A stretch of DNA of 64,000 nt, from contig NC_134682.1 in NCBI RefSeq assembly GCF_024713945.1, positions 4,751,001 through 4,815,000 on the forward strand, given 5' to 3'. A program made the position numbers and the translations under genes. A model generated the notes under the pieces. It was not told the DNA's origin and did no database searches. It worked only from the letters and a program-made list of their open reading frames with translations. Positions 15,130 to 54,896 of this stretch are shown piece after piece (the first letter of the stretch is position 1; each line of letters begins with the position of its first letter). The stretch comes from Dermatophagoides farinae. Taxonomy: Eukaryota; Arthropoda; Arachnida; Sarcoptiformes; Pyroglyphidae.

Positions 15130-15836
15130 AGTTCAGAATCGAGAAAATGACAAATCCAACCTAACACGATCAGTTCAGAATTCAAAATTCAAAATAAAAA
15201 AATAACAAGTCAAACTTAACACGACCAGTTCAGAATTCAAAATCAAAAAAATGGCAAATCCAAACTAACACGACTAGTTCAGAATCGAGAAAATAACAAG
15301 TCAAACTTAACACGACCAGTTCAGAATTCAAAATCAAAAAAATGACAAATCCAAACTAACACGACTAGTTCAGAATCGAGAAAATAACAAATCAAACTTA
15401 ACACGACCAGTTCAGAATTCAAAATCAAAAAAATGGCAAATCCAAACTAACACGACTAGTTCAGAATCGAGAAAATAACAAGTCAAACTTAACACGACCA
15501 GTTCAGAATTCAAAATACAGAATCGAGAAAATAACAAATCCAACCTAAAACGATCAGTTCAGAATCGAGAAAATAACAAATCCAACCTAACACGATCAGT
15601 TCAGAATCGAGAAAATAACAAATCCAACCTAACACGATCAGTTCAGAATCGAGAAAATAACAAATCCAACCTAAGACGACCAGTTCAGAATTCAAAATTC
15701 AAAATAAAAAAAAATAACAAGTCAAACTTAACACGACCAGTTCAGAATTCAAAATCAAAAAAATGGCAAATCCAAACTAACACGACGAGTTCAGAATCGA
15801 GAAAATAACAAATCCAACCTAACACGAGCAGTTCAG
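15130..15836 (+). repeat. left internal tandem array of the hAT element
   Basis: About sixteen head-to-tail units. The short unit is 42 bp, starting AGTTCAGAATCGAGAAAAT and ending CTAACACGATC; a longer form of about 49 bp replaces the middle with TTCAAAATCAAAAAAATGG. The short and long forms partly alternate, which suggests amplification of a two-unit block, while four near-identical short units in a row (15,520-15,680) suggest a recent local expansion. The 42-bp period keeps a frame open, which explains a spurious leucine-rich open frame here. Confidence 0.92.
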
Positions 15837-16006
15837 ATGGTTAGTTATTGGAATTAGTTACCAGAATTGGTTGGTTTCTATACCGTTTTTTAGATTCATT
15901 AAAAATTATTTTCAATGATGAATTGTGTTTTCCAAGATTCAGAGTTAAATAATGTTTGTTACATTTAATTAATTCGATATGTATCGGATGTTCTGCCATT
16001 GAAGAT
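15837..16006. other. central spacer between the inverted arrays
   Basis: About 170 bp of non-repetitive AT-rich DNA that would form the loop if the two arrays paired. Confidence 0.8.
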
Positions 16007-16768
16007 GAACTGGTCGTTTTAGTTTGGACTTGTTATTTTCTCGATTCTGAACTGGTCGTGTTAGGTTGGATTTGCCATTTTCTCGATTCTGAACTGGACG
16101 TGTTAGGTTGGATTTGTTATTTTCTGGATTTTGAATTTTGAATTCTGAACTGATCGTGTTAGGTTGGATTTGTTATTTTCTCGATTCTGAACTCTGAACT
16201 GATCGTGTTAGTTTGGATTTGTCATTTTCTCGATTCTGAACTCTGAACTGATCGTGTTAGTTTGGATTTGTCATTTTCTCGATTCTGAACTGGCCGTGTT
16301 AAGTTGGATTTGCCTTTTTCTCGATTGTGAATTTTGAATTCAGAACTGATCGTGTTAGTTTGGATTTGTTATTTTCTGGATTTTGAATTTTGAATTCTGA
16401 ACTGATCGTGTTAGGTTGGATTTGTTATTTTCTCGATTCTGAACTCTGAACTGATCGTGTTAGTTTGGATTTGTCATTTTCTCGATTCTGAACTGGTCGT
16501 GTTAAGTTGGATTTGCCTTTTTCTCGATTGTGAATTTTGAATTCAGAACTGATCGTGTTAGTTTGGATTTGTTATTTTCTCGATTCTGAACTGGTCGTGT
16601 TAGGTTGGATTTGTTATTTTCTTGATTTTGTACTGATCGTGTTAGATCGGATTTGCCTTTTTCTCGATTGTGAATTTTGAATTCTGAACTGATCGTGTTA
16701 GTTTGGATTTGTTATTTTCTCGATTTTGAATTCTGAACTGGTCGTGTTAGTTTGGACTTGCCATTTCT
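16007..16768 (-). repeat. right internal tandem array, inverted relative to the left array
   Basis: The same unit as at 15,130-15,836, in reverse complement (GAACTGGTCGTGTTAG, then TTGGATTTGTTATTTTC). Long and short forms are again mixed, with more drift than on the left and several units carrying a doubled GAACTCTGAACTG start. Confidence 0.92.
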
Positions 16769-45670: not shown

Positions 45671-46529
45671 ATGTTCAAAGTATGTGTGATTTTGTTTCAT
45701 CTGTTTTTTTTTTTTTTTTTTGTTTTGAAATTACGTGATTCTGGTGCTAATTTTTTTTTATTGGTTTTTTTTTGGTAAATAGATTTTCGTTATCGCTGCA
45801 TCAATTACCATGGCATATGGTAGCGGTTATGGAAGTATGGGTGGCAGTAGCAGTGGTGGTGGCGGCGGTGGTGCTGGTGGTTATGCCGCTCAAGCCATTA
45901 ATTTAGCTGTTAAATCTAGCCATAATGTTCAATATGTTGATGTTCCAACACAACGAATGTTCAAACCAATCAGTGTTGAAAGTATGTTTTGTCTGTCTAA
46001 TCAATCTAAAAATCACTAATCAATCAAATTTTTTTTTGTTTGTTTTTTTTTTGTTTTTATTCGAATCAATCAAGTCGGTGCTCAAGCCATTCCAATCAAT
46101 ATGATTTTCCGATCACAATCATCAGCATTGAATGTTAAACAACAACATCAAAGTGCTGCCGGTTCTCAACAAGAATCAAAATCGGAAGATGAACCACATA
46201 TATTGCGTCATACGGTTAAAAAACCAATTTATCAAATGATCAATGAAATCATTACACCATATCGCAAAATTACACAGGAAGTTAAACCAGTACAAGAAGA
46301 TATCCAAACAATTATTGCACGAATGTCCGGCGGTTCAAACATGGGTGGCGGATACAGTTCTGGCAGTTCAGGCAAAAGCGCTGGTTCCGGCATGAGTGGT
46401 GGTGCTGCTGCTGCTGCTGCTGGTGGTGATGCTGGTTACAGTATGTCTAGTGGTTCTGGTTCCAGTATGGGTGGTGGTGATGGTGGATACAGCAGTATGA
46501 CCATGAACAGCAATGGTGGTGGTTATTAA
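45671..46529 (+). CDS. CL-5: secreted Gly/Ser-rich cuticle-type protein
   Basis: Three coding exons: 45,671-45,679 (Met-Phe-Lys), 45,783-45,981 and 46,075-46,529, giving 220 residues. Signal peptide MFK plus IFVIAASITMAYG. The core reads LAVKSSHNVQYVDVP, IGAQAIPINMIFRSQSS, SEDEPHILRHTVKKP and EVKPVQEDIQTIIAR, nearly identical to CL-1 in its second half, and the phase-1 intron before the IGAQA block is at the same place. The N- and C-terminal low-complexity parts differ from CL-1 and are rich in Gly, Ser and Ala, so the core is conserved while the flanks are free to change. Confidence 0.85.
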
Positions 46530-47052: not shown

Positions 47053-48741
47053 ATGATGATTGATATAACAATTATGGCCAATAAACGAATATGGTTCAAA
47101 TGTTTGATGATGATCATCTTTTTCATGACGATTGTTGCAAATATTGTATTGGCTAATGATAAATCATTCATAGTGCGTGGTAATAATGTAACCGAATGGG
47201 ATTCTGTTCGATATCCATACAAATCCCTTTATGGTATATCCAAAAGATTAAAATGTGATGGATCGATTCATCAACAATTTAATGAATGTGAACGAACAGC
47301 ACATCATACGTGGCAAGTGACCATTGATGATTATGTGAGTTAATGGTTGAGATAATTTTTATGGTTATTATACAAATTATTCACTATATTTTTTGTCACT
47401 ATCAAAGTTTTATCAATCAAAAAAGTTTTGCTGTTTCATCTGGCAAACACTTGATTGTGAAAGAGATGTTGCTGCAAAATGTAGTGTTGATTATGCAAAG
47501 AAACTTGAAGCTAACGCTGAACAATCATACAAATCAATGTGCGATGGAGTTGGTTCAGCTCGTGATTCATGGACATGTTGGTTTACAGGTGAAAGAACGG
47601 ATACGATTCTTTGGATTATCGGAATTGTACTTCTTATCTTAGCGACCATCTGTGCATGCTTGGGAATTAGACTTTACAATAGTAATAAAACAAAGTAGGT
47701 GCTATTTTGTGTTCGTTTTATTTTACAATTTGAATCAATCTTTTTATATTCAATTTAATTTGAAAATTTTTTAGACCTGGATTGGAAAAAATTGGAAATC
47801 CAGAAAATTATAAAGAGGATGTTCGTTTATATTTGGAAACATTTGAGGCCAGAAATCCTAAATTTTCTGCCATATTGAAAGCAACAACTGCGAAGCAACC
47901 AGATGCCACTAAACTAACTCGTCCTAAAAGTTTCCATCATATGGAAAGACCAACGCCTGAAGGAGTTGCAGCTGGAATGGTGAGAAGAAAGGAAATTCTC
48001 GATCGTCCACCTACTTTACAACGTACTACCTCTGTAAAGCATCCAGATGTATCAATAAAACCAGTTCGTCCTAAAAGTTTTCATCATTCGGAAAGACCAA
48101 CGCCTGAAATCGTTGCCGCTGGAATGAGAAAACAAGATATCCTAGATCGTCCACCCACTTTACAACGTACTACATCTGTGCAGCAACCAGACACATCAAT
48201 AAAACCAATTCGTCCTAAAAGTTTTCATCATACTGAAAGACCAACGCCTGACGGCGTTGCCGCTGTAATGAAAAGACAGGAAATCTTCGATCGTCCACCC
48301 ACTTTACAACGTACCACATCTCTACAACAGCCAGATGCATCGCTAAAACCTTTGACACCAACTAAAAGTTTTCATCATACTGAAAGACCAACGCCTGACG
48401 GCGTTGCAGCTGGAGTAATGAGAAGACAGGAAATCTTCGATCGTCCAGCCACTTTACAGCGTACTACATCTTTACAACACCCAGATGCATCGATAAAACC
48501 ATTGAGTTCAAGTAAAAGTTTTCATCAACTTGAAAATCCAACGGCTGGCACCGTTGTCCCTGAACTAAATGCAACGAATCGACCACCAACTCCAGTAATG
48601 CCAACAACCGAAGGTGTAACAACAACCGTAACTCCCACGGCACCGCCATCAACATCGCCACTTACTGCAGATATCACATCGGCAATGACTAATGTAGATG
48701 AAATACAGAGATTGGTGCAACAATTGGATCATCTGAAATAA
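47053..48741 (+). CDS. Tail-A: single-pass membrane protein with Cys-rich ectodomain and repeat tail
   Basis: Three exons, 47,053-47,334, 47,408-47,694 and 47,775-48,741, joined in phases 0 and 2, give 511 residues. A signal peptide (IIFFMTIVANIVLA) is followed by a small ectodomain with eight Cys, including an adjacent CC pair in FCCFIWQTLDCERD, and one N-V-T glycosylation site. A helix (TILWIIGIVLLILATICACL) precedes a 320-residue cytoplasmic tail. The tail holds four clear and one degenerate repeat of 48-50 residues (47,920-48,570), each with KSFHH, ERPTP, DRPPTLQRTTS. The LQRTTS element looks like a basophilic kinase site. The last residues are a short amphipathic stretch (IQRLVQQLDHLK). 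I do not recognise the family. Met at 47,074 is an alternative start. It is paralogous to Tail-B. Confidence 0.82.
47920..48570 (+). repeat. coding tandem repeat in the Tail-A tail
   Basis: Repeat starts lie at about 47,920, 48,067, 48,211, 48,361 and 48,511, a spacing of 144-150 bp. Units 3 and 4 are closest to each other; the fifth fades after its KSFH start. Confidence 0.85.
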
Positions 48742-49092
48742 AAAAAATGACCATTCTGCTGATGATGAGCAACAATTGAAATTATTTTTGTTTTGATTTT
48801 TTATTGAAATTTTTATCGTTGTTGTTGAGATTTTTTTTTTCTTAAAACTTGAAATTAAAAAATGAATGATGTGGTGGTGTAAATAGAGCCAGCATGCGTT
48901 TTTTCTACTAAAATATCTATCAATTTGATTCATGTTTATGCCAAAAATTGAGCATTAGATCTGTGATTTATATTGTTGATTATTGATGAATAAATGTCAA
49001 CATTGATTGTTCATAAGACGAAATGATAAATAAATAAATGAAACTGGTGTTTAAAATACAAACTAATTAAAATGTCATTAATTTATCACGCT

Positions 49093-49102
49093 AGATGGCG
49101 TT
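49093..49102 (+). promoter_or_regulatory. AGATGGCGTT motif (CTCF-like), copy 4
   Basis: Plus-strand AGATGGCGTT right at the left border of the duplicated Tail-B promoter block; absent from the corresponding Tail-A site. Confidence 0.4.
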
Positions 49103-49207
49103 ACATATGATAAATGTTGAAACGAAATAAAACAAAAATAATGGAATTTTCCAATTTTAGCTAACAAAATCACGAAAATCGAATAAACAAGAATGGATTG
49201 AATATCG

Positions 49208-49215
49208 TGTAAATA
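49208..49215 (+). promoter_or_regulatory. degenerate TATA position of Tail-B
   Basis: TGTAAATA stands where Tail-A has TATAAATA, in an otherwise well matched block. The change should weaken TBP binding, so Tail-B may be expressed differently. Confidence 0.45.
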
Positions 49216-49299
49216 AATTTGACCACCAATTTTTTACGATCTTAATTTTTATTTTTTTTTTTGGTGTTGTTGTTTTATGTTATAATAATAACTCTTTTA

Positions 49300-52200
49300 A
49301 TGACCGGATTTTTGTTTATAGATAATGATGGCAAACAAATCTCTTCAATATTTTTGAGGATAGTCATCTTCTTCATGACGATTGTTGCAAATATTGTGTT
49401 GGCTGATAATAAATCATTCATAGTGCGAGGTAATAATGTAACCGAATGGCAATCTATACGATATGCATACAAATCCCCCTATGGTCTATCCAATAGATTA
49501 AAATGTGATGGATCGATTCATCAACAATTTAATGAATGTGAACGAACAGCACATCATACGTGGCAAGTGACCATTGATGATTATGTGAGTTAATGGTTGA
49601 GATAATTTTTATGGTTATTAACAAATTAATTACTATATTTTTTGTCACTATCATAGTTTTATCAATCAAAAAAGTTTTGCTGTTTCATCTGGCAAACACT
49701 TGATTGTGAAAGAGATGTTGCTGCAAAATGTAGTGTTGATTATGCAAAGAAACTTGAAGCTAACGCTGAACAATCATACAAATCAATGTGCGATGTAGTT
49801 GGTTCAGCTCGTGATTCATGGACATGTTGGTTTACAGGTGAAAGAACGGATACGATTCTTTGGATTATCGGAATTGTACTTCTTATCTTAGCGACCATCT
49901 GTGCATGCATGGGAATTAGACTTTACAATAGTAATAAAACAAAGTAGGTGCTATTTTGTGTTCGTTTTGTTTTACAATTTGAATCAATCTTTTTATATTC
50001 AATTTAATTTGAAAATTTCTTAGACCTGAAATGGAAATCCAAAAAATTGGAAAATCAACAGAAATGCATTTATCTATTGCAAATTATGCTGCCAATTTGA
50101 GACAGGTATCAGCATCTGATGCGCCAATAAAACAACCACAAACTCGAGGAAACCGATCATTTTTACTTCCCGATGGAGGTGGCTCCATAACGGATCCACC
50201 ATTGCCAAGTGGTGTTTCAAAAAATATCTCTTCATCTGCATCAAGAACACCGACTCCAGTAATGCGACCCGAAAGAGCAACAACTCCAGTAATGAAACCC
50301 AAAGGAGCAAGTGTTCCAAAGAATATCGCTTCATCTGCATCAAAAGCACCAACTCCAGTAATGAAACCCGAAGGAGCAAGTGTTCCAAAGAATATCCCTT
50401 CATCTGCATCAAAAGCACCAACTCCAGTAATGAAACCTGAAGGAGCAAGTGTTCCAAAGAATATCCCTTCATCTGCATCAAAAGCACCAACTCCAGTAAT
50501 GAAACCCGAAGGAGCAAGTGTTCCAAAGAATATCGCTTCATCTGCATCAAAAGCACCAACTCCAGTAATGAAACCCGAAGGAGCAAGTGTTCCAAAGAAT
50601 ATCCCTTCATCTGCATCAAAAGCACCAACTCCAGTAATGAAACCTGAAGGAGCAAGTGTTCCAAAGAATATCCCTTCATCCGCATCAAAAGCGCCAATTC
50701 CAGTAATGCAACCCGAAGGAACAAGTGTTCCAAAGAATATTCCATCATCTGCATCAAAAGCACCAATTCCAGTAATGCAACCCGAAGGAACAAGTGTTCC
50801 AAAGAATATTCCATCATCTGCATCAAAAGCACCAATTCCAGTAATGCAACCCGAAGGAACAAGTGTTCCAAAGAATATTCCATCATCTGCATCAAGTAAC
50901 ACCGCCGCTATACATGGTTTGGAAAATGTAAGTCCTAGTTCATCGGTTCATAGAGGAGGATATTCAAGCGGCACCCTGACCCCAGCTTCATCGAGAAATA
51001 GTTTTGGGTCAGATATTACTCAAGTGTTATCTCAACCAACAAACTCCAAAATTCAACGACATTCATCGCTACCTGATCTAAAATCGACACAACCAGCAAC
51101 AATTGAGCGATTGAGTAAGAGTCTTATTTCTGTTCAAGATCAACAAAGCCCCTTATCATCAGCCTCATCGACATCATCATATTTGTCGGCAAGTGATGGT
51201 TATGCTACCGATAGTTCTGGTTTGGTAATGATTGCAGGATCAAAGAAACCAAGATTTCAAGCAAACACAAGTTCCTCATCCGTTCTCGGGAGACAAATAG
51301 ATACACCATCATTGCAACAAACATCACCACCACCACCATCTCCAACAGCACCTGTTGGCAACGTCTTAGGTAATTATAATGGATTAATTAGAAAAGATCC
51401 CATAATTATTAATGTCTTTCTCTTACATCAAACGCATCGGCATCTTTTAACTCATCTGTACCATCAGAACAAATTCCTCAAATGGACGCACATACACCTA
51501 GAAAATTTGTTCTTCAGCCTCCCATTCGATTAGACCGCACTCAATCGGAAATAATTACAGGATCGAGACAAACATTATTGCCAAAAAGCGCAAGTTCACC
51601 ATCTATTTTCTATCCCGAAATGGACGCACCATCCCCAACAGCACCTGTTGGTAACGTTTTAGGTAATTATTATATTGATTAATGATCAATTAACCAAGAT
51701 TCCATGATTATAAATTTCTTTCTTTCATCTTACTTTCTTCCGTTTCATCGAACTCAACTCTTTACCACCAGATCAAATTCCTCAAATGGACACTCATACA
51801 CCGAGAAAATTTGTTCTTCAGCCTCCCATCCGATTAGACCGCACTCAGTCTCAAATAATTACAGGATCGAGACCAGCGATATTGCAAAAAAGCACGAGTT
51901 CACCATCTATTTTCTATCCCGAAATAGACGCACCATCATCATCAACATCAACAACACCGACCCCGGCAACATCTGTTGACAACATTTTAGGTAATTATTA
52001 TATTGATTAATGATCAATTAAACAAGATTCCATGATTATAAATTTCTTTCTTTCATCTTACTTTCTTCCGTTTCACCGAACTCAACTCTTTTCCACCAGA
52101 TCAAATTCCTCAAATGGACGCTCATACACCTAGAAAATTTGTTCTTCAGCCTCCCATCCAATTAGACCGCACTCAGTCTCAAATAATTACAGGATCGAGA

Positions 52201-53513
52201 CCAGCGATATTGCAAAAAAGCGCAAGTTCACCATCTATTTTCTATCCCGAAATGGACGCACCATCCCCAACAGCACCTGTTGGTAACGTTTTAGGTAATT
52301 ATTATATTGATTAATGATCAATTAACCAAGATTCCATGATTATAAATTTCTTTCTTTCATCTTACTTTCTTCCGTTTCATCGAACTCAACTCTTTACCAC
52401 CAGATCAAATTCCTCAAATGGACGCTCATACACCTAGAAAATTTGTTTTTCAGCCTCCCATCCGATTAGACCGCACTCAGTCGGAAATAATTACAGGATC
52501 GAGACAAGCGATATTGCAAAAAAGCACGAGTTCACCATCCATTTTCTATCCCGAACTAGACGTACCATCATCATCGACATCAACAACACCATCCCCGGCA
52601 ACATCTGTTGACAACATTTTAGGTAATTATTATATTGATTAATTTACCAATATTACATGATTATAGATTTCTTTCTTTCATTTTAAACTCATATGCATCT
52701 TTTAACTCATTTGTACCACCAGATCAAATTCCCCAAATGGACACTCATACAACTAGAAAATATGTTCTTCAACCTCCCATCCGTTTAGATCGCACTCAAT
52801 CGGAAATAATTACAGGATCGAGACAAACAATATTGCCAAAAAGCACAAGTTCACCATCCATTTTCTATCCAGAACTAGAAGCACCATCATCATCGACATC
52901 CACACCATCCCCGACACCATCTGTTGACAACGTTTCGGGTAATTTTCCATTAATTAATTAAGATTTCAAGATTATAAATGTCTTTTTTATCTCAGTCTCA
53001 TCATCTAGACCACTATCACCGGCACTATCTGAAACATCTGATATTCATCCAAGTATTGGATCGAATAAAGCATTAGCAACAACAGAACCAGTAAATTCAT
53101 CTATAGATGTCATTAAAGATGTTAATATAAGTCGTGGTCCAAGTTTTAAATCGGCAAAAAAAACAATTGAAAAAAAATTTGCATATGAACCTCGATCAAC
53201 TGTCGTTACTAATTTGGATAGTTTCGAAACAAGAAGACAATCGATCGCTGAGAAAATGACAACAATAGTGCGACATTTATTTTCGTTTTCTGGAACATCA
53301 TACACGAGACCAGTATCAAGATCAACCACTGCTATTTCACCTCAACCATCACCATCACCATCATCGTCGTCAACCTCGACATCATCGTCTTCAACCTCGA
53401 CACCATCGTCTTCAACCTCGATACCAGATATGACAGCAACAACGGATATGACACGAGTCATACAAGAATTGGATGCATTGAGTAAATTACGAAATTTAGA
53501 TTCAACACCATAA
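49300..53513 (+). CDS. Tail-B: single-pass membrane protein, long repeat- and cassette-built tail
   Basis: Nine exons by splice sites and frame: 49,300-49,584; 49,657-49,943; 50,024-51,369; 51,468-51,662; 51,772-51,990; 52,100-52,294; 52,404-52,622; 52,723-52,938; 52,996-53,513. Together they give 1,159 residues if all are used. Exons 1-2 repeat those of Tail-A almost unchanged: signal peptide, eight-Cys ectodomain, helix. The N-terminal leader before IFFMTIVANIVLA is less certain because the frame differs from Tail-A there. Exon 3 codes nine to ten 23-residue repeats (KNIPSSASKAPTPVMKPEG) and a Ser-rich part. Exons 4-8 are repeats of one cassette, all phase 1 at both ends. The last exon is Ser/Thr/Pro-rich and ends with IQELDALSKL, like the Tail-A tip. 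I do not recognise the family; the tail may be a scaffold for cytoplasmic partners. Confidence 0.78.
50220..50895 (+). repeat. 69-bp coding minisatellite in Tail-B exon 3
   Basis: About nine full units and one partial unit, each 69 bp (23 codons). Units of two subtypes (…TPVMKPEGASVP and …IPVMQPEGTSVP) are grouped, the last three being almost identical, which points to recent unequal exchange. Long open frames on the minus strand here are side effects of the 3n period. Confidence 0.9.
51468..52938 (+). repeat. tandem array of five symmetric cassette exons in Tail-B
   Basis: Five exon-plus-intron units with exon lengths 195, 219, 195, 219 and 216 bp, all divisible by three and bounded by phase-1 introns. 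Introns 4, 5 and 6 are each 109 bp and almost identical. Every cassette starts (D/E)QIPQMD, then HTPRKFVLQPP, LDRTQS, IITGSR, SSPSIFYPE, and ends SVDNILG or PVGNVLG. The 195/219 alternation implies duplication of a two-exon block. Confidence 0.88.
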
Positions 53514-54055
53514 TATAATTTATTATTGCGAAAATTGAAAAAATAGATACGAATAACCAATAATTGTTTTATATTTTTTTTCTATTTTTATAATTCATTT
53601 CAATGTTATCGATTTGACCAAATTTATATCTGAATTTCAAAGATAGATTTTGTCATGACATGATTTTCATGTCAAGCAGTGTGGCAACAACGATATTATT
53701 ATTTTCTGCCACTTTTTTTTGTGGAAAATTTCACTTTTATCTTAAAAAAAAAAATAAAAATGTACATTTTTTGTAATTTAAAAATTTTTCTTGTTATCTA
53801 CTATATAATTTTATTATTCTTCTTGTCATTTCTTTTTTCGTATTTAAATAAATAAATAAATAAATAATTATCTGTGGGATTGAAAGAGATATGGTTGAGA
53901 GAGAGAGAGAGAGAGAGAAAATGGATTTGGCATTTCAATCGATTTTTTTCTTGGTTCTTCACAGGTTATTGTAGCCATATCCACCATCGTTTCGGATTTT
54001 TTTTTCAAAAAAAAAACTACAGCTACCATTTTGAATGGTTTACTACAATTATTAT
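53514..54055. other. gene-free stretch, Tail-B to CL-6
   Basis: 3' flanks of two converging genes, with (AAAT)n (53,848-53,866) and (GA)n (53,896-53,918). The last 100 bp resemble the 3' flank of CL-7. No gene. Confidence 0.5.
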
Positions 54056-54896
54056 CTAATAGCCACCACCACCATATCCACCGCCCATACCGCCACCATA
54101 ACCACCTCCTTGACCACCACCATAACCACCGCCCATACCGCCACCATAACCGCCTCCTTGACCACCACCATATGATTGTCGTGAAACCAAAGTTTCAATT
54201 TCTTCTTGCACGGGTTTAATTTCCTGAGTAATTCGTCGACGTGGTGTAATGATTTCATTGACTTCTTGGTAAACTGGTTTTTTCACTGTATGTTTCAAAA
54301 CATGTGGTTCATCTAAACAAGTGGAAAATTAAATTACCGATAAGCGGAAATTATCAACAATACCACATACCTTGTGAATATGATTCTTGATGGCTGCCTT
54401 TTTGACCTTCATGTTGTTGGTTTACATGCAAATACGATGATTTGGATCGGAAATTCATATAAACTGGAGCAGCATTGGCATTGACTATCGAATTGGAAAT
54501 TGATTAAGAAAATTAATTTTAAACAAATCAAAGAGAAAAAATTCGAAAATAATCATACCATCAACATAGACTGGTTTGCTGTAACCAGATGATGGAACAT
54601 CATATGAACGGATATTGTGATAAGATCGTACAGCTAATGGAATGGATCCGTAGCCGCCACCACCACCATAGCCGCCACCACCACCACCACCACCATAACC
54701 TCCACCACCATAAGCACAGACCAAAGTGGTCAAAGTAGCCAAAACCAAAAGCTATTTAAAAATTGAAATGAAAAGAAAAATTAATGAAACGAATGATATG
54801 ATTTTCAGATGCGTTCAGGTTATCGGATGGTTATGGATCAAAGAAACTCGAGACAAATGGATCATTCAAACGAAAAAAAAATCATACTTTGAACAT
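54056..54896 (-). CDS. CL-6: secreted Gly/Tyr-rich cuticle-type protein
   Basis: Four coding exons on the minus strand: 54,896-54,888 (Met-Phe-Lys), 54,751-54,559, 54,484-54,371 and 54,312-54,056, giving 190 residues, all joins in frame. Signal peptide MFK plus LLVLATLTTLVCA. A short GGGGY part, then a changed core (LAVRSYHNIRSYDVP, VNANAAPVYMNFRSKSS, SQDEPHVLKHTVKKP, EIKPVQEEIETLVSR) and a tail of GGGYGGGMGGGYGGGQ repeats. It has one intron at the CL-1/CL-5 position and an extra phase-1 intron before DEPHVL. Sister of CL-7, which shares both introns and flanks. Confidence 0.85.

Follow-up and report, generated by a model that had tools for sequence, protein, structure and literature searches.

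Siglec-11 and Siglec-16 are paired receptors whose extracellular exons have been converted repeatedly (PMC5701461). Paired receptors of the CEACAM family combine a similar ligand-binding outside with opposing cytoplasmic parts (PMC2832619 and PMC5112662). In Botryllus, an invertebrate, the FcoR/fester receptors have long tails, and alternative splicing exchanges the ITIM, hemITAM or Yxx[I/L/V] motifs that these bear (PMC12065747). Two tandem genes of the mite Dermatophagoides farinae, A and B, located in a 64,000-nucleotide stretch of contig C6 (the window, C6:4751001-4815000), can be compared with these receptors. The initial annotation saw in their shared outside and different insides a design that it could place in no known family; the principle is familiar from vertebrate paired receptors, e.g., Siglec-11/16. 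Judging from their sequences, A and B probably belong, as tandem members, to a family of mite type I membrane proteins that cross the membrane once. This family of about 27 surface proteins is apparently undescribed and unnamed.

Gene structure at the A/B locus

Exon models of A and B were predicted from splice signals, open reading frames and paralogues. Gene A occupies 47053-48741 (+) with three exons coding for 511 amino acids. Gene B occupies 49300-53513 (+) and has nine exons in the model, coding for 1159 amino acids when all of them are included. The features are:

47053..47334, + strand: gene A exon 1, signal peptide and ectodomain Cys 1-2 (translation and donor GTGAGT)
47408..47694, + strand: gene A exon 2, FYQSKKFCCF..., ectodomain Cys 3-8 and transmembrane helix (acceptor backed by paralogues)
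47775..48741, + strand: gene A tail exon, 48-50-residue repeats (four complete, the fifth partial); its ends are weakly family-like
47245..47779, + strand: high-identity (conversion-like) tract, counterpart in B at about 49495-50028 (change-point test)
49300..49584, + strand: gene B exon 1, start ATG at 49300 (open frame and resemblance to paralogue N-termini)
49657..49943, + strand: gene B exon 2, Cys 3-8 and transmembrane helix
50024..51369, + strand: gene B first tail exon, family tail block followed by 23-residue repeats (match to the g2-g6 tail profile)
50276..50895, + strand: gene B array of 23-residue (69 bp) repeats, 9.0 copies, from family block VPKNISSSTSRTP..VM
51468..51662, + strand: gene B cassette exon 1, 195 nt, phase 1-1, IFYPEM
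51772..51990, + strand: gene B cassette exon 2, 219 nt, IFYPEI
52100..52294, + strand: gene B cassette exon 3, 195 nt, IFYPEM
52404..52622, + strand: gene B cassette exon 4, 219 nt, IFYPEL
52723..52938, + strand: gene B cassette exon 5, 216 nt, IFYPEL
52996..53513, + strand: gene B last exon, resembling the end of the paralogue g6 tail

Both genes, the eight ectodomain cysteines, the single transmembrane helix, the 48-50-residue repeat of A and the 23-residue repeat and five cassettes of B had been recognised by the initial annotation and were all confirmed. Hydropathy gives A and B one N-terminal hydrophobic stretch and one transmembrane stretch each, and the basic residues after the latter suggest that the tail is inside the cell. 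As judged from the paralogues, the exon 2 acceptor lies 18 nt before the AG adjoining FCCF, with FYQSKK preceding FCCF. A small indel puts the N-termini in different frames, B uses another ATG (49300), and the first ~20 residues of the two proteins differ. Since the five cassettes of B are all multiples of three in length and in phase 1-1, skipping any one of them would leave the reading frame intact. Retention of intron 2 in A (47694) or B (49943) would meet an immediate TAG and would give a tailless receptor.

The pair is flanked by genes for Gly-rich secreted-type proteins on opposite strands, at 45673-46529 (+) and ~54050-54700 (-). Inverted arms by A and B (46187-46322 and 54179-54314) are 78% complementary. 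The window also holds two ~42-bp tandem-repeat arrays (15144-15837 and 16006-16760), whose consensus units look mutually reverse-complementary, and a Der p 2-like gene (E 1.4e-30 against Der p 2).

The ectodomain family

A search for paralogues combining the ectodomain with other tails, proposed along with the initial annotation, was rewarded: whole-genome protein searches (62.4 Mb in 22 contigs) located the eight-Cys ectodomain at 27 places on three contigs, with very different tails behind it. Queries with three different members recovered one set: the first gave 27 places, the second added a single tail fragment to these, and the third missed one of them. Some places were marginal with one query and clear with another; the weakest, C4:548155, reached E 0.008 at best. 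Nine places are on C6 (A, B and g1-g7) and lie either here or ~180 kb upstream, one is elsewhere on C6, eleven are on C4 and six on C8. g7 (C6:4622364) seems to be without intron 2, its tail running on from exon 2. An ectodomain alignment of 18 of the 27 members, which omits nine close copies, shows no variation in FCCF, in the Cys-Glu that comes next and in another single Cys, and almost none in two other Cys.

The design had not been assignable to any known family. This holds against the Pfam-A cut-offs and the PDB: homology to a known family was looked for in both, and none was found at cut-off. Pfam gave no family at its cut-off for A, B or the ectodomains, a sequence-profile search of the PDB with an 18-row exon-2 profile yielded nothing up to E 10, and a search of viral contigs found no known family. 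The listed Pfam matches, with E up to 10 (25 of 30 families in one case), included no Ig-like or C-type lectin domain. The nearest family by score was PF22394 (25.5, cut-off 26), whose match to 27 residues (381-407) within an A tail repeat we take as chance. A weak profile match to DUF5346 (PF17281) covers the part encoded by exons 1 and 2, with 18.0 bits (E 0.0033) in B and 14.9 bits in A; the best of these does not reach the curated cut-off of 27 bits. Among six trimmed ectodomains one matched DUF5346, at 12.1 bits, and that of A itself gave no match. A search of the mite literature, in which subscription journals are thinly covered, found no such family described. The structure predicted for exon 2 alone, without an alignment, is a poor model (mean pLDDT 57.4, pTM 0.30, all helical), with pLDDT mostly below 50 in the ectodomain part.

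The high-identity tract and probable gene conversion

A and B share ~540 bp at ~98% identity, covering late exon 1, both introns and exon 2. Their DNA identity is zoned: it is ~70% upstream (shuffled ~61%), ~89-90% in early exon 1, ~98% in the core and 62-69% in the tails, little above chance (shuffled 59-63%). At 47245 a change point divides the alignment into 123 columns with 13 differences and 536 columns with 9; one of 2000 permutations equalled it, the stretch (47122-47780) having been picked after the identity profile had been viewed. Within the tract, differences number 0/88 in exon 1, 4/73 in intron 1, 2/287 in exon 2 and 2/80 in intron 2, and 13 of the first 32 tail columns differ. 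The near-identical outside that had been described stands for exon 2 (98% identical in protein), but not for the first ~20 residues, and the likeness is a mosaic. The border placed exactly at the intron before the tail was close on that side, where identity drops within a few nt past the tail acceptor, but the tract also starts inside exon 1, at ~47245.

Exon 2 of A and B (95 codons) has no synonymous change in 58 sites and two nonsynonymous changes in 227. By comparison, dS amounts to 0.118 over the final 73 exon-1 codons of this pair, and to 0.39 in exon 2 between A and g5. Introns are 67-69% identical and exon 1 87-88% identical between A and g5, so introns are the fast part in that pair. 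In A/B this rate order is reversed, which conversion explains and selection does not. Purifying selection alone was rejected, as the introns of A and B are about as alike as the exons. Recent duplication of the whole gene was also rejected, since divergence in the tails and upstream regions greatly exceeds that in the core.

When the early exon-1 segment is taken alone, A and B are still sisters (98/94), on branches of 0.052 and 0.057 versus 0.014 and 0.016 when the whole segment is used, i.e., 3-4 times longer. With this pairing on longer branches, A and B look like older sisters that were homogenised later. The outer part of the two genes has probably become nearly alike through gene conversion between older tandem sisters, as far as the sequence pattern can tell. 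The locus had initially been taken for a duplicate with unrelated tails, a view that has to be given up: the outer part looks converted, and the tail of B is a family tail.

A GENECONV-like permutation test on the shared segment of eight C6 genes (A, B and g1-g6) gave a global p of 1.0 for A/B, which match at 92% of the polymorphic sites. Low global p values were obtained for B/g3 (0.0015), A/g5 (0.0135) and A/g2 (0.0165), all in a conserved part of exon 1. The g2/g5 pair is similar to A/B, with dS of 0.017 in exon 2 and 0.146 in exon 1, intron 2 96% identical and the tail start 77% identical. Intron 1 is 100% identical between g2 and g6, and tail starts are 84-86% identical between g5 and g6. 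The array paralogues show a patchwork similar to that of A/B.

Tails of A and B

The tail of B appears to be the native tail of this family, enlarged by repeat expansion, its 23-residue unit having arisen from a conserved family block. As a whole it beats 200 of 200 shuffles against the tails of g2, g3, g4, g5 and g6, with scores of 247, 171 and 166 against g2, g6 and g5 (shuffle means 61-79; 0/200 each); against g1 and g7, 40/200 and 177/200 shuffles were as good. A g2-g6 tail profile scores 67.9 bits on B, a value reached by none of 198 scored decoys, and its stretch 65-86 hits the 23-residue units (TRF period 69, 9.0 copies) repeatedly, in nine domains of 4.0-10.1 bits. Searched against the genome, the g6 tail block has eight matches, all in six genes (g2-g6 and B) and behind an eight-Cys ectodomain. 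The last exon of B resembles the end of the g6 tail (score 109, shuffles 52+-8, 0/500). The C-terminal family profile misses B (-31.9 bits; 171/199 decoys as good). The cassettes match B only; a further hit, on C10 (E 0.43), falls in the portion of that query taken from the last exon. Derivation of a B cassette from a segment of g6 was unsupported, 308/500 shuffles being as good.

The tail of A seems largely private and could be a replacement. Against the whole genome it matched only itself at E <= 1. No relation was found between its 48-50-residue unit (TRF period 144, 4.2 copies) and the g2-g6 tails, and the likeness of this unit to the start of the B tail is not convincing (34/500 shuffles as good). 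Equating it with the B cassette was likewise unsupported (score 28 vs 25+-5, 150/500). Its first 60 residues beat 200/200 shuffles against g2 and g6; as good were 108 of 200 against B, where the score of 21 equals the shuffle mean, and 5, 20, 4, 10 and 86 of 200 against g1, g3, g4, g5 and g7. The N-terminal family tail profile gives A -5.1 bits, with 180/198 scored decoys as good. The last 40 residues beat 200/200 shuffles against g3, g5 and g7; shuffles were as good in 1/200 cases against B (score 45), 1/200 against g2 and 5/200 against g6, and the comparisons with g1 and g4 were not above shuffles. Here the C-terminal family profile scores 8.1 bits, above 180/180 scored decoys. Over the whole tail A and B score 86, with 31/200 shuffles as good (13/200 with roles swapped). 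Three unrelated repeat types had been recorded in these tails: the A unit and the cassette indeed gave no sign of a relationship, but the 23-residue repeat comes from the family block.

Tail repeats and other close pairs

Tandem repeats of at least 18 bp were found in 7 of the 27 tails (A, B, g1, g2, C8:1708, C8:920 and C4:1142), with periods that are all multiples of three except for B's intron-bearing units. Ten of the 27 tails are shorter than 250 nt in this count, which outside the array takes only the frame continuous with exon 2; C8:1712 is cut at the locus end, and C4:4952 reads N and is also cut. The full frame of C8:1712 gave no repeat with the same program. Copies of the tail repeats have pN/pS of 0.43, 0.39 and 0.42 and look to be under some constraint. 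The Pro/Ser/Thr-rich tails diverge, partly through in-frame growth of tandem repeats.

The A/B pattern recurs in one of three further close pairs, C8:920/922, where windows of 40 residues have 32-38 agreements along the 160 residues that begin at FCCF and 4-17 beyond them. The same outside with different insides therefore holds for A/B and C8:920/922, but C8:1708/1712 shares most of its tail, 21-40 of 40 residues agreeing over most of it and 2 of 40 in one window; this tail has a stretch of repeats and is less alike in its middle. This pair perhaps represents an early stage of tail divergence. C8:1708797 and C8:1712045 (L018, L019) are a recent pair, with a 42-bp repeat (5.2 copies) in the former and none called in the latter. 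C4:1142/4952 is comparable only up to an N stretch because its second member reads N.

Putative signalling motifs and a possible mechanism

The A repeats carry RPKSF and RTTS[VL], amounting to seven RxxS-hydrophobic sites. IFYPE[M/I/L] occurs once in each of the five B cassettes, three of which are strictly ITIM-like by the motif rule; A has no such Tyr motif. By general motif rules these RxxS and Yxx[M/I/L] sites are candidate kinase, ITIM-like or PI3K-type sites. By chance RxxS appears in 28-55% of shuffles and Yxx[M/I/L] in 6-13% of shuffled cassettes, and in neither case are the copies independent. Adaptor-coupled activating receptors have a charged transmembrane residue; the transmembrane helix of A and B has no charged residue.

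The reading that we prefer, though with confidence no better than even, is that the outside is kept homogenised, the disordered tails diversify and A and B work like paired receptors. The two proteins would then have one ligand or partner specificity in common, and this shared input would be fed into different docking platforms in the tails. In A, the repeated basophilic-kinase-like RxxS sites may serve as such a platform; in B, each of the five cassettes would contribute one Yxx[M/I/L] site, and the number of sites could be set by exon skipping. A bolder version is speculative and, in our judgement, improbable: a non-Ig, non-lectin receptor system of mites, perhaps of arthropods, in which conversion would keep a common recognition module, each gene would grow a repeat-built signalling scaffold, and B would dial phosphotyrosine sites by cassette skipping, so that one input gives several outputs.

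Alternative explanations

Tandem copies may exchange sequence wherever they are alike enough, with no selection for a shared outside; the tails would escape exchange because their repeats make them unalignable. Such neutral concerted evolution is a possibility that we take seriously while doubting it. It fits the extension of the tract over introns as well as exons and the array patchwork, which crosses the ectodomain/tail border at the 84-86% identical tail starts of g5/g6, but it sits less well with the apparent constraint on the tail repeats (pN/pS ~0.4) and with a second same-outside/different-inside pair on C8, neither of which is decisive. Far less probable is a partial duplication or exon shuffling event that copied the 5' half of one gene ahead of an unrelated tail gene. 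The identity drop at the intron/tail junction would be expected from it, and the A tail matches only itself in the genome, its repeat unit having no match in g2-g6. However, the tract begins within exon 1, where the A/B homology that precedes it is older, the B tail block is found only behind an eight-Cys ectodomain, and the C-terminus of A resembles those of g3, g5 and g7 (0/200 shuffles each). That the tail exons are separate genes is disfavoured for the B-type block, as it was found in six genes only and always behind the ectodomain.

The proteins could also be structural surface or adhesion proteins, the ectodomain docking to cuticle or a neighbour cell and the tails being non-signalling cytoskeletal spacers of variable length. 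The Gly-rich secreted-type genes that adjoin A and B (the neighbourhood looked at was that of A/B), the long Lys/Glu-rich tails of some C8 relatives and the highly variable tail length would suit this role, which we nevertheless regard as unlikely; the retention of kinase-like motifs in the repeats speaks weakly against it.

Comparison with known receptor systems

Returning to the preferred paired-receptor reading, A and B are like Siglec-11/16 in being neighbouring receptors with ectodomain exons made near-identical, in A and B probably, by gene conversion; the Siglecs are sialic-acid-binding Ig-like lectins with opposite (inhibitory/activating) signalling. In contrast, A and B have an orphan eight-Cys ectodomain, an uncharged transmembrane helix and repeat-built tails. 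CEACAM ectodomains are made of Ig domains. The motifs described for CEACAM receptors are of ITIM/ITAM type (PMC2832619, PMC5112662). The Botryllus FcoR/fester proteins differ from the mite proteins in their Ig/Sushi ectodomains and their place in an allorecognition locus (PMC12065747); their likeness to A and B is at the level of gene architecture.

With vertebrate paired receptors as a whole, A and B share a near-identical ectodomain with different tails and its homogenisation by conversion, although the GENECONV-like test was negative for A/B; they do not share the Ig-like or C-type lectin ectodomain. We therefore draw an analogy in gene architecture and claim membership in no named system. 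If it is true, an arthropod would have evolved paired-receptor logic independently, with another kind of ectodomain and repeat-expanded tails. Even a modest reading yields a mite family that apparently has no name, together with a clear example of diverging insides beneath an outside that has been homogenised.
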